From a virus: a stretch of DNA of 21,011 nucleotides. Positions 8,973 through 13,821 of the stretch are shown piece after piece. A program made the position numbers and the translations under genes. A model generated the notes under the pieces. That model did no database searches. It was not told where the DNA came from and saw nothing but the letters and a program-made list of their open reading frames with translations. The stretch's first letter is position 1, and the number at the start of each line of letters is the position of its first letter. The stretch covers positions 1 to 21,011 of the IMG/VR virus record IMGVR_UViG_3300042938_001022; one strand, 5' to 3'.

Positions 8973-9105
8973 AGTTACGTACAACTATTTTGATAGTGGC
9001 AAAAAAAGAATTGCCATCAGAATCCTAGAGGCACTAGATAGGGAACACGCAATAATGCAAATGGCTATGTGGCCTAAACTAATACTAAAAGTAGAAACGT
9101 TATGA
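8959..9105 (+). CDS. Small basic hypothetical protein (48 residues)
   Basis: The frame starts MKRFKVTYNYFDSGKKRIAI and continues 'RILEALDREHAIMQMAMWPKLILKVETL'. The pattern of two strands, a helix and a final strand is like small phage proteins that modify or mimic a ribosomal or enzyme surface, but no family is recognised. It overlaps the gene before and shares an ATGA with the gene after (9102), good evidence of an operon. Confidence 0.55.
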   Translation: MKRFKVTYNYFDSGKKRIAIRILEALDREHAIMQMAMWPKLILKVETL

Positions 9106-9482
9106 TTGATCGAATAGAACAAATAATTGAAGAGCAAAATTTAAAAGAGAAATCCAGATACAGATATTTAGTCCATAGAAGGTGGTTTTTATTTGGAATA
9201 CTACGTAAACATGGAATAATATACAGGCGAATTGGTGAGATGTTTAACTTAAATCACTCAACTATTTTATATGGTATGGCGATGGCTGACTTTTACGAAC
9301 GGCAGCAAGACGAACTTTACTTACTTGATACTATGGAACTTCAAAAAGAATTTGCTGGCAAAGAAATAATATTCCATCAAAGAAATTTGATAGACGATAT
9401 TCATAACTGTAAATCAATGAACGAACTGTTAGTTATACAATGTCGATTAAAAAATAATCAATACAAAAATTATATAAACTAA
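9102..9482 (+). CDS. Stand-alone DnaA domain IV-like DNA-binding protein
   Basis: Residues about 20-70 resemble the C-terminal DNA-binding domain of DnaA: 'RRWFLFGILRKHGIIYRRIGEMFNLNHSTILYGM'. 'IGEMFNLNHSTILYG' corresponds to the DnaA signature helix-turn-helix (GRDHTTVLHA type), with H52, S53 and T54 at the base-contacting positions. There is no AAA+ ATPase domain: the protein is only 126 residues, with a helical C-terminal half of unknown role. It may bind DnaA boxes to recruit or block host initiation, or regulate transcription. It is coupled by ATGA overlap to the preceding small gene. The domain is fairly clear; its function is inferred. Confidence 0.6.
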   Translation: MIDRIEQIIEEQNLKEKSRYRYLVHRRWFLFGILRKHGIIYRRIGEMFNLNHSTILYGMAMADFYERQQDELYLLDTMELQKEFAGKEIIFHQRNLIDDIHNCKSMNELLVIQCRLKNNQYKNYIN

Positions 9483-9493
9483 ATTTAAAAAAT

Positions 9494-9769
9494 ATGAACA
9501 TTTTAGAAAAGGCAAATGAGATAATTAATTTGCGAGTTGAAGAGAAAGAAAGAATGTATGGTCCATTTGAAGAAGGAATGGAACGAGCAGCGATGATTGC
9601 TTCAGGGTGTACAGGCAAGGAATTTACGGCTAGCGATATGTATATATGCCTAGTGGCTTTAAAAATGTCTAGGCAGTCTTATAATCACAAAGAGGATAAC
9701 CTATTAGATGCTGTTGCTTATCTAGCTAGTTTAAATAATTATAACAATAATAAAAAATGTAAAATATGA
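9494..9769 (+). CDS. All-alpha NTP pyrophosphohydrolase-like protein (DUF6378-like)
   Basis: This 91-residue helical protein has 'ERMYGPFEEGMERAAMIASG', 'TASDMYICLVALKMSRQSY' and 'HKEDNLLDAVAYLASLNNY'. The last stretch is like the E/D..D metal-binding helix of MazG/dUTPase-type all-alpha pyrophosphohydrolases, and the whole resembles phage DUF6378 proteins. If active, it would cleave a nucleoside triphosphate to monophosphate plus pyrophosphate. It directly precedes, and overlaps by four bases, the first gene of the putative base-modification cluster, so trimming a dNTP pool is a sensible role. The first metal-binding EExxE-type helix is less clear than in the MazG-like protein at 13061. Confidence 0.5.
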   Translation: MNILEKANEIINLRVEEKERMYGPFEEGMERAAMIASGCTGKEFTASDMYICLVALKMSRQSYNHKEDNLLDAVAYLASLNNYNNNKKCKI

Positions 9770-10659
9770 AAAGAGCAATAATTGGGATTTTAAATAACCC
9801 AGCAACTTCTTTAAATTCTCATTCTGCAGGAATGGTTGAAATAGTAAGCAAATTATTTAACGCTGACATTTTAAATGATCGTGATGATTGGGATCAATAT
9901 GATGAGTTGATTATTTATCATGGTCCTAATTTTAAACCTGGTTCTTTTAATGTAATTGGTGGAATTAATGATGCCATTTTAGTAAGAGCAAAAAAATTAA
10001 ATGAATTTAAAAAAAGCATTTTATCTCTTGATGGTTTTCAATTATCAGAATTTTCAATTAAAAGAAAATTATTTCTTTATGACGAAGTTGATAATTACAA
10101 AACAACAGAATTGCCAAAAAGATCAAATTTAGTTATTGGAGATAGCCATTCGTTGTCAGTTTGGCCAAATGAAAATTATACTATTTCTAGAAATGATGGT
10201 AAAACCTTATATGGCTTTTTAAAATTAGATGTAGATCTGTCTGCTTATGATCATATAATTATGTATTTTGGCAATATCGATCTAAGATTTCATTTAGCTA
10301 GACAACCAGATCCGATAGAAGCTACAAAAAAATTATTTAAAAACTACATTAATTACGCTTCAAAGTATAATATAACCTTAACTACTTTACTTCCTGTAGA
10401 AGATGAGTCTCGAAAAATACCTCAATCAGGTCAGTACAAAGGCAAAAACTTTTTTGGATCAATAGAGCTAAGAAAAGAAATAAGAAACGTTGCAAACAAA
10501 ATAATAATCGAATCAGGATTAAAATACATTGAATGGCCTGAAACTTATCTAAATGAAGAAGGAAATTTAAGTTTTGATGCAATGGAACCTAAGCAATCTG
10601 TTCACTTAAGACCAAAATTTTATATTAGAAATATTAATAACCAACCTAAACTATTTTAA
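9766..10659 (+). CDS. SGNH/GDSL hydrolase-like protein in modification cluster
   Basis: This 297-residue protein has two parts. The N-terminal ~115 residues show an alternating strand/helix pattern ('RAIIGILN...', 'DELIIYHGPNF') of unknown type. The rest has SGNH-hydrolase-like blocks: G125-D-S127-H ('NLVIGDSHSL'), 'MYFGNIDLRFHL' (169-172 GNID in place of GxND) and 'DAMEPKQSVHL' with D271 and H280 as possible catalytic acid and base. This would predict an esterase, deacetylase or acyltransferase using S127. The gene is extremely AT-rich: hand counts give 11, 17, 15 and 12 G+C of 60 for lines 10021, 10081, 10201 and 10321, against 28-29 of 60 in capsid and terminase samples, a hint of separate origin. 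It overlaps its upstream neighbour and is followed after one base by the next gene. Catalytic role and substrate are unknown. Confidence 0.55.
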   Translation: MKRAIIGILNNPATSLNSHSAGMVEIVSKLFNADILNDRDDWDQYDELIIYHGPNFKPGSFNVIGGINDAILVRAKKLNEFKKSILSLDGFQLSEFSIKRKLFLYDEVDNYKTTELPKRSNLVIGDSHSLSVWPNENYTISRNDGKTLYGFLKLDVDLSAYDHIIMYFGNIDLRFHLARQPDPIEATKKLFKNYINYASKYNITLTTLLPVEDESRKIPQSGQYKGKNFFGSIELRKEIRNVANKIIIESGLKYIEWPETYLNEEGNLSFDAMEPKQSVHLRPKFYIRNINNQPKLF

Positions 10660-10660
10660 A

Positions 10661-11572
10661 ATGTTAAAACAATTCACTGATTACTACTCTAAAGCAAAAA
10701 AAATGCAAGAGTTAAAATTCCAAGGTAAAAATTGGACAAAAGAAGATATTAATGATGATCTAGTATGGAACATCCCAATCTATGATGTCGTTAATAGACG
10801 GTATGCAGCCTTTAGTTCTTTGCCAGAAGCAATTAAATATAAAGATAAAGATCCAAAGAAAAATGGTATTTATTTTGATAGCTTAGGTGATAAATTAAAC
10901 TCTGATAATTTTATTAAAATGTGTTATCTTTTTAGACTTTGTGGTTCTGGTATTAATTACATCCCTAAAGTTAAAGATCAAAAACCTTTTGGAACACATG
11001 GCTTTGGAAATTTTTGGATCGTAGAACAATTACGGAATGGCTCATGTTTGCATGAAGATTGGCTTAAAGCAATACCTGAGAATAGATTTTGCGATGTAAA
11101 AGGATATTTATTACCAATGATCAAAGGAGGCCTTAGGAATTATATAATTAATGAATCAATGGATCTAGTTAACTATCTTACAGATATAATAAACACATCT
11201 GATAAAACTGGAATAAAAGAAATAGTTGACAAAGGAAATGAATGGCTATTAAAAAAAGGTTATAATCGACAAAACTTTGTGCTAACAGCATTTGCTATGG
11301 ACATGGCAGAATATTTTCCTAATTTAGTTGATCAAGAATCAGATGTATATGTAGGAAGCAATGCAAAAAAATGCCTTAACATGATCTTGCCAAAAATGAA
11401 TACTGATAAAGCGTTAAGATATCTTTGTAATCTTACAGGCAATTTTAGTAAACCTTACGACATGGAAGACGTCGCATGTGACTTTATTAGATACATTGAG
11501 AACTTTCAATCCGAAGGACATATAAAAGCAAACAACAATATAATTTATAAAAACAATATAAGCCATGAATAA
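10661..11572 (+). CDS. aGPT-Pplase / amino acid:DNA transferase-like protein
   Basis: This 303-residue, mostly helical protein resembles the alpha-glutamyl/putrescinyl-thymine pyrophosphorylase (aGPT-Pplase, also called amino acid:DNA transferase) group. Those enzymes have a DNA-glycosylase-like fold and displace pyrophosphate from an activated hydroxymethylated base in DNA with an amine such as an amino acid. Pointers are 'CYLFRLCGSGINY' (88-100), 'GTHGFGNFWIVEQL' (111-124), 'DVYVGSNAKKCLNMILP' (228-244) and the C-terminal 'YDMEDVACDFIRYIE' (266-280), a position where family members have an E..LCE-type motif. The neighbours, a TS-family hydroxymethylase and a PLP enzyme, are the typical genomic partners of this group. 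No base-phosphorylating kinase is seen in the window. The assignment is by pattern memory and needs a profile search. Confidence 0.5.
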   Translation: MLKQFTDYYSKAKKMQELKFQGKNWTKEDINDDLVWNIPIYDVVNRRYAAFSSLPEAIKYKDKDPKKNGIYFDSLGDKLNSDNFIKMCYLFRLCGSGINYIPKVKDQKPFGTHGFGNFWIVEQLRNGSCLHEDWLKAIPENRFCDVKGYLLPMIKGGLRNYIINESMDLVNYLTDIINTSDKTGIKEIVDKGNEWLLKKGYNRQNFVLTAFAMDMAEYFPNLVDQESDVYVGSNAKKCLNMILPKMNTDKALRYLCNLTGNFSKPYDMEDVACDFIRYIENFQSEGHIKANNNIIYKNNISHE

Positions 11573-12401
11573 AGTAGAAAAGTTTACCGTAACCAATTCT
11601 AATTACAATATGGATTTAGTATACACTAGAGATGAATATTTAGAAATGGTTGAAGATTTCAACAGTAGTTTTAATGATCCTATAATTGAAGATTATGATG
11701 GCATTAAAGTAGTCAGAGAAGATTTATTAGAAGTAGGGTCGAAAGCAAGAGCTGGAGAAGCATTAATTGCAAATTGTAAATCAGATACAATTGTCTATGT
11801 TCAACCAAGATTTGGCTATGCAGGAATTTCATTGACTCAATTGTGTAAAAAGTACAATAAAAAGCTTGTATTATTTATGCCAAGCTCAAAAGAAATATCA
11901 GAGCACCAGGCTTATTGTATTGAAAACGGATGTGAATATCACTTTCATAGAATAGCTGCCATGCCTAACTTAAACATCATAGCTAAGAATTATGCTAAAC
12001 AAATTGGAGCGTTTTTTATTCCTTTAGGTTTAAAGCATCCTTTAGTTACTGCCATGATCATAAAGACTGCAATGAAAATAGAAGAGCCTAAAAGCTTTTG
12101 GACTGCCTTTTCAACAGGTGTTTTAAATAGAGCATTACAAATTGCTTGGCCAAATGCTATAGCAAATGGTTTAGCTGTGTCTAGAAATATACATGATGGA
12201 GAAAAGGGAACAGCTAACGTAGTAGGTCACTACCAAAATTTTAGTTCTGACAGTAAAATAAAGCCTCCGTTTCCTAGTGCGTCTAATTATGATGCAAAAG
12301 TCTGGGAATATTTACAACCAGGAGATTTGTTCTGGAATGTAGCTGGTAATTTAAAATCTAACTTAGATAAAAAAACAATTAATTCATTTAGAAACTGGTA
12401 A
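11565..12401 (+). CDS. Fold-type II PLP-dependent enzyme
   Basis: This 278-residue protein looks like a compact member of the tryptophan synthase beta / ACC deaminase / cysteine synthase superfamily. K60 in 'EVGSKARAGEALI' is the likely Schiff-base lysine (compare GNKxRKL). 'VYVQPRFGYAGISLTQLCKK' (77-96) corresponds to the substrate-binding loop and helix, 'KLVLFMPSS' to the next Rossmann strand, and 'AFSTGVLNRAL' (181-191) to the glycine-rich phosphate-binding loop. It would act on an amino acid: elimination, replacement, deamination or decarboxylation. In thymine-hypermodifying phages PLP enzymes remodel the amino acid added to the base; by position (8-base overlap with the transferase gene) the same is inferred here. 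At under 280 residues it is shorter than free-amino-acid enzymes of the family (about 310-400). Confidence 0.6.
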   Translation: MNKVEKFTVTNSNYNMDLVYTRDEYLEMVEDFNSSFNDPIIEDYDGIKVVREDLLEVGSKARAGEALIANCKSDTIVYVQPRFGYAGISLTQLCKKYNKKLVLFMPSSKEISEHQAYCIENGCEYHFHRIAAMPNLNIIAKNYAKQIGAFFIPLGLKHPLVTAMIIKTAMKIEEPKSFWTAFSTGVLNRALQIAWPNAIANGLAVSRNIHDGEKGTANVVGHYQNFSSDSKIKPPFPSASNYDAKVWEYLQPGDLFWNVAGNLKSNLDKKTINSFRNW

Positions 12402-12402
12402 C

Positions 12403-13035
12403 ATGAAATATTATAACGCACAACATGCATTTGAAGATTTGTACACTAGCATTAGTGACAATGGAAATAATTTTGCAGATACTAAGGCACAATTTAACGT
12501 TGGCTTTTACATAATGAATCCTCAAGATAATGTAATTAAAACAGAATTTAGAAAATGGAATCATGACTATGCAGAATATGAGTGGCAATGGTATCTATCT
12601 GGAAATCCTGACGCATCTGAGATATCTAAAAGAGCTCCAATATGGTTAAGCCATATGGACGAAAAAAACCACGTTAGATCAAACTATGGTTGGCAATGGT
12701 TGCGAAAAGATCAATTAAAAAATGTTATAGATAAACTATCTGAATATAAAGATACTAGACAAGCTGTGATTTCAATATATGATGGCAAAGAAATAGATAC
12801 TTATTACAAAGATACTCCTTGCACATTGTCCATTCATTTTCAAATTATAAATGATTTACTTTGCATGACGGTTAACATGAGGTCTAACGATTTATGGTTC
12901 GGCTTTTGCAACGATCAATATTGCTTTAGTGAACTTCAAAAAATGATGGCACAAGAATTAAATATTAAAACAGGATGGTACTACCATTTTGCAAGCAACA
13001 TACACATTTACAATAATTTTCTAAATAAACAATAA
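12403..13035 (+). CDS. Thymidylate-synthase-family nucleotide hydroxymethylase, probably dCMP-type
   Basis: This 210-residue protein is a TS-family enzyme that adds a one-carbon unit from methylene-tetrahydrofolate to C5 of a pyrimidine monophosphate. Catalytic Cys is C140 ('DTPCTLSIHFQI'). R160-S-N-D binds phosphate, and H201 and Y203 ('NIHIY') match the sugar-binding pair. E60 matches the general-base Glu. Spacing from C140 to H201 equals that in E. coli TS (C146 to H207), so the residue matching TS N177 is D171. Asp at this position is the hallmark of T4 dCMP hydroxymethylase (C148/D179), so dCMP rather than dUMP is the likely substrate and hydroxymethylation rather than methylation the likely reaction. 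At 210 residues it is shorter than TS (264 in E. coli). It starts one base after the PLP enzyme gene. Confidence 0.8.
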   Translation: MKYYNAQHAFEDLYTSISDNGNNFADTKAQFNVGFYIMNPQDNVIKTEFRKWNHDYAEYEWQWYLSGNPDASEISKRAPIWLSHMDEKNHVRSNYGWQWLRKDQLKNVIDKLSEYKDTRQAVISIYDGKEIDTYYKDTPCTLSIHFQIINDLLCMTVNMRSNDLWFGFCNDQYCFSELQKMMAQELNIKTGWYYHFASNIHIYNNFLNKQ

Positions 13036-13060
13036 TAACTTAAAACTAAAAATAAACATT

Positions 13061-13405
13061 ATGAAACTAAAAAACGAATTTGAAACAATAAGAACTTGGG
13101 CATCTGAAAGAGGAATCTACGACAAAGGTGATGGTAAAACTCAATGCATTAAATTATTTGAAGAAGTAGGAGAACTTTCTAAAGCTATTTTAAATAATGA
13201 CAAAGAAGAAATGATTGACGCTATTGGCGACATAGTAGTAGTATTAACAAATCTAACCGAGTTGTTGCCTCTGTACAAAGAAGGCGAAGATTATGGCGAT
13301 GTTGAAAAGATGACAATTGAAGATTGTATTAATTCAGCCTTTATGGTTATAGCAAATAGAAATGGTAAAATGATTAATGGCACATTTATAAAAGAAACGA
13401 AATGA
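13061..13405 (+). CDS. MazG-like NTP pyrophosphohydrolase
   Basis: This 114-residue all-alpha protein has the MazG metal-binding signature: E34-E35-x-x-E38 ('KLFEEVGELSKAI') followed by E50-x-x-D53 and D57 ('EEMIDAIGDIVVVL'). It should hydrolyse a (d)NTP to (d)NMP and pyrophosphate. Next to a TS-family hydroxymethylase this parallels T4 gp56, a dCTPase that both supplies dCMP and keeps normal dCTP out of new DNA; the substrate here is inferred only from that parallel. The leader AATAATAACTTAAAACTAAA is A-rich. Its stop overlaps the next start (ATGA at 13402). Confidence 0.75.
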   Translation: MKLKNEFETIRTWASERGIYDKGDGKTQCIKLFEEVGELSKAILNNDKEEMIDAIGDIVVVLTNLTELLPLYKEGEDYGDVEKMTIEDCINSAFMVIANRNGKMINGTFIKETK

Positions 13406-13821
13406 GAACTTACAAATCAAGAATAAAAATACCAACCGAGTTAGAATATAACTCAACAGGTGTAATTGGAGAAAAAATATTTGAGCTTTGGTTTACTCTT
13501 AATTTTCAAGGCGAAAAAATATTCAAACAATTAGCTGATCGTGAATACCAACAAATTGATTTTGCCGATGAGAAAGGTTTCACATATCAAATCAAAGCAA
13601 CTAAACATCGTTCGTACACTTTTAATTGTACTTTAGATGACATTAGAGATCATTTAAACAGCGACTATTATGTATTTATACAAATAAAAGAGAAGTATGC
13701 TTACATCGAGTCTATTTACACGAAAGCAGAAATACTTGATAAAGTAAGCGTATCGTTTAAGGATCAAAATACTTGTTTTATTTGGGCTAATGATTTGCTT
13801 CAGCAAAAATTAGATATATGA
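13402..13821 (+). CDS. PD-(D/E)XK nuclease-like protein
   Basis: This 139-residue protein shows the core order of restriction-endonuclease-like folds: a helix with E24 ('VIGEKIFELWF'), then a strand with D53 ('QQIDFADEKG'), then 'YQIKATK' (Q63-I-K65) standing for the (D/E)xK strand, and a following helix. Such small proteins occur as phage nucleases, resolvases or inactive DNA-binding versions. It overlaps the MazG-like gene (ATGA) and the replisome organiser gene (ATGA at 13818), so it sits between the modification and replication modules. A nuclease that destroys unmodified host DNA while sparing modified phage DNA would be logical here, but this is only inference. Confidence 0.5.
   Translation: MRTYKSRIKIPTELEYNSTGVIGEKIFELWFTLNFQGEKIFKQLADREYQQIDFADEKGFTYQIKATKHRSYTFNCTLDDIRDHLNSDYYVFIQIKEKYAYIESIYTKAEILDKVSVSFKDQNTCFIWANDLLQQKLDI

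Follow-up and report, generated by a model that had tools for sequence, protein, structure and literature searches.

A probable cytosine-hypermodification cassette with an SGNH-fold component in uncultivated tailed phages

The 21,011-base sequence analysed here, referred to below as the window, is the entire IMG/VR record IMGVR_UViG_3300042938_001022, to which no near match was found among cultured phages. It includes six adjacent genes coding for a DUF6378 protein, an SGNH-fold protein, a protein which we call P3, a pyridoxal phosphate (PLP) enzyme, a thymidylate synthase (TS) homologue and a MazG protein (Table 1). Together these genes very probably form a cassette which builds an elaborately decorated cytosine into viral DNA. 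An original prediction, made from the letters of the sequence, had described the region as a putative DNA-base hypermodification island of six adjacent genes, the central four tightly packed. All six open reading frames (ORFs) were indeed found at the predicted coordinates, on the same strand. The DUF6378 and SGNH genes overlap by 4 nt, the SGNH and P3 genes are separated by 1 nt, the P3 and PLP genes overlap by 8 nt and the PLP and TS genes are again 1 nt apart. The view that this is a hypermodification island is supported, and the prediction holds in large part.

Table 1. The six cassette genes of the window and the matches on which their assignments are based
Feature	Coordinates	Strand	Evidence
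DUF6378 protein, 91 aa; accessory, possibly nucleotide-pool related	9494..9769	+	PF19905 E 6.5e-12
SGNH-fold protein, 297 aa	9766..10659	+	AF2, Foldseek and VIA structure matches
P3, 303 aa, amino acid:DNA transferase-like	10661..11572	+	AF2, Foldseek and VIA structure matches
PLP fold-type II enzyme, 278 aa	11565..12401	+	phrog_7093, cysteine synthase profile, M6 hhalign
TS homologue, dCMP (or CMP) 5-hydroxymethylase type	12403..13035	+	PF00303 E 5.6e-24
MazG-type nucleotide pyrophosphohydrolase, 114 aa	13061..13405	+	PF03819 E 5.4e-5; phrog_1992 E 2.9e-31

The gene set is far beyond chance, since the same order, DUF6378-SGNH-P3-PLP-TS-MazG, is found again in about 88 distinct uncultivated viral loci amid differing flanking genes. 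A scan of viral contigs with P3 returned 201 relatives, 80 of which were kept, and a scan with the PLP protein returned 31. Among the 88 distinct P3 loci, many of which lie on truncated contigs, the PLP gene is present in 87, SGNH in 82, TS in 77, DUF6378 in 74 and MazG in 62. In the 31 loci with ample flanks the corresponding numbers are P3 31, PLP 31, SGNH 30, TS 29, DUF6378 25 and MazG 22. The one well-flanked locus in which no separate SGNH gene was counted is apparently L053; there, as in L058, a single ORF of 639 aa combines SGNH and P3. Thus the SGNH protein, which had been taken as an addition to a known type of pathway, is instead a constant partner of P3 and is fused to it twice. P3 identity ranges from 25% to 99% across the cassette loci, and the SGNH-P3-PLP triad is kept together even at 25–33% P3 identity, with an altered order in one locus (L105). 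Neither 50,697 phage records nor the genomes of 84,980 species, the latter scanned by pattern, yielded a relative of P3, so that the carriers look like virulent phages which have not yet been cultured.

The TS homologue gives an indication of the target base. Its best match in the Protein Data Bank (PDB) is the CMP hydroxymethylase MilA (5jnh; E 1.6e-33) and it also matches the dCMP hydroxymethylase of phage T4 (E 1.2e-28). The catalytic Cys140 is invariant, and Asp171, the dCMP-type residue which replaces the Asn of TS, is present in 44 of 44 sequences. The equivalent residue is also Asp in the Aeromonas phages 44RR and 25, and is Asn in phage M6. These properties support the original suggestion of a dCMP-specific hydroxymethylase and place the protein in the dCMP/CMP 5-hydroxymethylase type. 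Because Asp171 stands where M6 has Asn, the predicted target is cytosine and not thymine. The ADDT (amino acid:DNA transferase)-like and PLP components described below would also suit a thymine or uracil pathway derived from 5-hydroxymethyldeoxyuridine (5-hmdU), as in phages M6 or ViI. We set this pathway aside on Asp171 and consider it highly improbable, since among solved structures a CMP hydroxymethylase matches best and no 5-hmdU kinase was found in the cassette contigs searched. The match to MilA, an enzyme of the mildiomycin pathway, also raises the idea that the genes serve a nucleoside natural-product pathway, a setting in which PLP and SGNH enzymes are often found, and not DNA modification. 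However, the fold of P3 is that of enzymes acting on DNA bases, and the cassette was seen in no source other than phages, where it adjoins replication genes and MazG; this makes the idea barely credible.

Two of the genes had been predicted to encode pyrophosphohydrolases. This is borne out for the gene at 13061, a MazG by PF03819 (above cut-off) and phrog_1992, whose product carries EExxE at residues 34–38 and ExxD at 50–53. The gene at 9494 belongs to DUF6378, and a pyrophosphohydrolase identity is not established for it. In 13 loci a dCMP deaminase gene is found close to the cassette (L092:6791-7207, PF00383 E 3e-24, is one example), in keeping with control of the nucleotide pool.

P3 could be assigned to no family by sequence (Pfam, PHROGs, NCBIfam and PDB profile searches). 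Neither the window P3 nor any of the 47 members scanned matched PF18724, the ADDT family, up to E 10, and PF18724 gave no match in 17 cassette contigs while the controls ViI, M6 and phiW-14 did match. Comparison of P3 with alignments of M6-clade ADDT and of HMUDK_hel using hhalign also gave no match. Sequence is not decisive in this case because ADDT and HMUDK_hel are themselves linked by only a weak profile match (E 0.013). The AlphaFold (AF2) model of P3 is confident (pLDDT, the model's own confidence score, 92.7) and presents an all-helical, DNA-glycosylase-like fold. Among viral models, Foldseek matched it to a protein named 'Amino acid:DNA transferase domain' (A0A6J5L8T5; E 8.2e-12, TM 0.79, 25% identity), to a second protein named as an amino acid:DNA transferase (E 2.5e-5), and then to aG/PT-PPlase1 and HMUDK_hel proteins. 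Among solved structures, VIA ranked first 8z2n (Z 10.0), which is PaMx11 gp46/PUGT, a 5-phosphomethyl-dU glycinyltransferase, followed by AGOG DNA glycosylases (Z 9.3). Since the structure matches are not accompanied by profile matches, we regard P3 as related to the amino acid:DNA transferases at the level of fold, outside PF18724 by sequence, with a predicted transferase activity. The earlier assignment to the aGPT-Pplase/amino acid:DNA transferase-like proteins is thus borne out by the modelled fold and not by the profiles (PF18724 and the M6-clade ADDT alignment). The P3 alignment includes 28 invariant residues and its conservation is on a par with that of the SGNH protein. A match between the SGNH and P3 alignments (E 1e-10) was due to the presence in the P3 set of the L053 fusion, which was then confirmed.

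The SGNH protein consists of an SGNH domain (residues ~114–291) and an extra N-terminal domain. Apart from two PHROGs of unknown function, no sequence family was found for it. Its AF2 model is also confident (pLDDT 93.3). Residues 114–291 of the model match sialate O-acetylesterase (6xpg; E 5.6e-6) in a Foldseek search of the PDB and, with VIA, acetyl xylan esterase (Z 12.6) and the O-acetyltransferase PatB (Z 10.6). Ser127 of block I (in GDSH), Asn170 of block III (in GNID) and His280 of block V (in SVH) are invariant in the SGNH alignment (A2). The modelled fold and these three residues place the protein in the SGNH hydrolase superfamily, in agreement with the original prediction. The Asp of block V (DxxH) is replaced by Gln277, which is at least 90% conserved; a catalytic dyad or a transferase role is possible.

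Relatives of the SGNH protein were found among phage records of Aeromonas (38), Tenacibaculum (3) and Stenotrophomonas (2). The SGNH domain of ORF233c of Aeromonas phage 44RR, a hypothetical protein, is 32% identical over 286 aa. In phages of the 44RR type (44RR and 31) this relative is 795 aa long. Its C-terminal domain is weakly HMUDK_hel-like (PF18723 E 9e-4, below the Pfam cut-off) and shows, by eye, the motifs GxGPyy.YhfssnL, AGPGA and E..aCqFnvF. Like the window, 44RR thus couples an SGNH domain, homologous to that of the window, with a glycosylase-like domain; 44RR itself has gene 42 and lacks a glucosyltransferase. Unlike the window, ORF233c is a single fused protein, no PLP gene was found in 44RR and the C-terminal domain could not be aligned to P3 by profile. 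The Aeromonas SGNH carriers examined have a dCMP-type hydroxymethylase in common; PTm1 gave only a weaker TS-family match. Gene 42 (hydroxymethylase) is present and glucosyltransferase absent in the Aeromonas phages 44RR, 31 and 25, and another modification of hydroxymethyl-dC in such phages has been left open, with RB69 and JS98 named (PMC2993671). The SGNH gene of Aeromonas phage 25 stands alone, without a P3-like domain. Directly before it (L202:2276-4457) lie genes for a UDP-galactopyranose mutase (E 5e-54) and a 358-aa protein, perhaps a glycosyltransferase; this pair possibly provides a sugar modification of 5-hydroxymethylcytosine (5hmC). In the literature we found no system joining SGNH, phage DNA modification and 5hmC.

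As a single sequence the PLP enzyme scores 16.6 bits with PALP, below the Pfam cut-off, and matches phrog_7093 (E 2.7e-36). Its profile matches cysteine synthases (E 1.1e-5), with the invariant Lys60 aligned on the Schiff-base lysine of SIKDR. By profile the protein is thus a member of PLP fold type II (PALP), as had been proposed, with Lys60 as the putative Schiff-base residue. The profile also matches the PLP enzyme encoded beside the ADDT of M6 (hhalign E 7e-7; BLASTP 3e-4), a gene placement which is documented in an M6-like phage, SN1 (PMC9476957). The M6 gene set found here agrees with the annotation of the M6-like phage SN1, which includes a hydroxymethylase, aGPT-Pplase1, a kinase, a radical SAM protein (rSAM), a PLP enzyme and aGPT-Pplase2 (PMC9476957). 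The ViI PLP enzyme gave no match with hhalign, so that the M6 type is the supported relative. Other relatives, which share about 31% identity, occur either as fusions with a piece of an N6/N4 DNA methylase or next to one: L002:2326-4764 (Erythrobacter phage ZS04), L003:9998-10708 (Microcystis phage Mae-JY30) and L004. In the Microcystis phage the PLP relative and the methylase piece adjoin genes annotated as ParB. These methylase-linked relatives are a second DNA-modification context for the PLP family.

The original prediction had also suggested a search of the rest of the genome for a P-loop base kinase. Both M6 and ViI yielded a P-loop 5-hmdU DNA kinase (PF18748) together with HMUDK_hel, while PF18748 was found in none of 19 cassette contigs and HMUDK_hel (PF18723) in none of 17. 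Two cassette contigs (33.9 and 36.7 kb) look complete, because their ends overlap by 165 bp at 99.4% identity. No P-loop kinase was found in these two genomes of the window clade or in seven partial ones. As read by size and motif, the Walker A proteins of one complete-looking genome comprise a terminase and a DnaB-like ATPase, and the other genome has just a terminase.

We propose, with a probability of about 0.6, that a virulent tailed phage uses this island to hypermodify cytosine, in four steps which include activation by the SGNH protein. In the first, for which the sequence argues strongly, the TS homologue would convert dCMP to 5-hydroxymethyl-dCMP, so that 5hmC enters the phage DNA, and MazG, perhaps with DUF6378, would trim the nucleotide pool. 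In the second, as the fold, the fusions and the linkage suggest, P3 would flip out 5hmC and load its 5-methylene with an amino acid or an amine, working with the SGNH protein as one complex. More speculatively, the hydroxymethyl group may be activated by the SGNH protein, which is proposed as the activator because no base kinase was found; it could, for instance, acylate this group, so that the leaving group is a carboxylate and not a phosphate. Finally, its homology to the M6 enzyme suggests that the PLP enzyme would remodel the amino acid once attached, for instance decarboxylating it to give an amine-bearing cytosine. The phage DNA would then be protected from restriction. One possibility is a serine-like residue with a free amine, whose decarboxylation would give the cytosine counterpart of the 5-(2-aminoethoxy)methyl base of ViI (PMC6449724). 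The more specific scheme is put forward only tentatively: a kinase-free route in which the SGNH protein acylates 5hmC, the glycosylase-fold transferase swaps the acyl group for an amino acid and the PLP enzyme remodels it, and in which a related SGNH-helical fusion would also explain how hydroxymethylcytosine may be modified in 44RR and 31.

Several observations weigh against this proposal. Sequence profiles do not tie P3 to ADDT or HMUDK_hel, and a Z of 10 is merely moderate for a helical protein. We know of no precedent for SGNH activation in amino acid:DNA transfer chemistry. The 5-hmdU phage phiW-14 was likewise missed by PF18748; the sensitivity of this search is thus limited and a divergent or non-Walker kinase may have escaped it. 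Moreover, a separate, distant clade does encode a P-loop kinase beside TS. This TMK (thymidylate kinase)-like protein (L170:7942-8937, L169:7913-8890, L106:9244-10179) carries in L170 a uracil-DNA glycosylase (UDG)-like C-terminal domain (PF03167 E 8e-5), which would suit a base kinase. Its occurrence, with that of relatives in cultured Pseudoxanthomonas and Stenotrophomonas phages, would fit ordinary ADDT chemistry on 5hmC that had been phosphorylated by a kinase of the host or by one of the phage that escaped detection; the SGNH protein would then trim or cap the product. We consider this route unlikely: the two complete-looking and seven partial window-clade genomes yielded no P-loop kinase, and in L099 and L104 the kinase gene accompanies TS at a distance of kilobases from the SGNH-P3-PLP triad, which is what one would expect of a nucleotide kinase. 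The absence from the window clade and the linkage to TS argue for a nucleotide-kinase role of the distant-clade protein, although its UDG-like domain points the other way. In the cultured phages, Pseudoxanthomonas phage PW916 and Stenotrophomonas phage AXL_3, the kinase relatives adjoin a TS gene that is annotated as dUMP-type or plain TS and whose product bears the dCMP-type Asp.

A different division of labour, in which the SGNH protein is itself the modifying enzyme, also has to be considered. As an O-acyltransferase or O-aminoacyltransferase it would esterify 5hmC while P3 merely presents the base and the PLP enzyme makes or alters the acyl donor. The domain resembles carbohydrate esterases and PatB, and PatB-like SGNH enzymes acylate sugars. 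The SGNH gene of phage 25 has sugar-related neighbours and no P3-like domain, and HMUDK_hel, the partner of the M6 5-hmdU kinase, shows that helical domains can serve as partners. However, P3 best matches the ADDT branch and, with its invariant residues, is as well conserved as its SGNH partner, and remodelling of the M6 type is easier to reconcile with an amino acid on the base than with an ester. This too seems an improbable arrangement, and activation by the SGNH protein followed by transfer by P3 remains the reading we prefer.

To our knowledge, ADDT-type amino-acid hypermodification of DNA is established for thymine only. The pathways of M6, PaMx11 and ViI include an ADDT (aGPT-Pplase2), together with a 5-hmdU kinase, aGPT-Pplase1/HMUDK_hel, a PLP enzyme and a radical SAM protein. 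The window shares with them a TS-family pyrimidine hydroxymethylase, an ADDT-fold protein and an M6-related PLP fold-type II enzyme. It differs in that the hydroxymethylase is of the dCMP type, P3 lies outside PF18724 and SGNH and MazG proteins are added. The PF18748 kinase and HMUDK_hel of M6 and ViI were not found in the contigs searched, and motifs revealed no radical SAM gene. The 5hmC system of T4 (gp42, gp56 and glucosyltransferases) resembles the cassette in its type of hydroxymethylase and in having a pool-cleaning pyrophosphohydrolase. In contrast to T4, no glucosyltransferase was recognised in the cassette, MazG replaces gp56 and the predicted adduct is derived from an amino acid. 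The 5hmC carbamoyltransferase and CmoX/CmoY also decorate hydroxymethyl- or carboxymethylcytosine in phage DNA (PMC8670742, PMC12783734) but, unlike the window, use ATP-dependent carbamoylation or amide ligation; the text of the CmoX paper mentions no SGNH or PLP component. What would be new here is a cytosine-directed variant of a known DNA hypermodification, with an SGNH-fold protein as the constant partner of P3 where known pathways use a kinase.

The flanks of the cassette include other small genes. Just upstream (9102-9482) the window encodes a small protein with the C-terminal helix-turn-helix of DnaA (PF08299 E 5e-5, below cut-off). The neighbour of MazG (13402-13821), a 139-aa protein conserved in many cassettes, resembles a PD-(D/E)XK-type nuclease by eye, without a significant Pfam match, and could attack unmodified DNA. 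In nine loci, including L083:3130-3690, a 186-aa protein which is weakly YunG-like (PF24585 E 0.05) is encoded between PLP and TS.

The cassette suggests a cytosine branch of ADDT-type hypermodification which is widespread in uncultivated viruses. It also offers a candidate role for the SGNH family and a testable answer to the question of the fate of hydroxymethylcytosine in the Aeromonas phages 44RR and 31. If the SGNH protein does replace the kinase, this would represent new enzymology and may provide a tool for labelling 5hmC.

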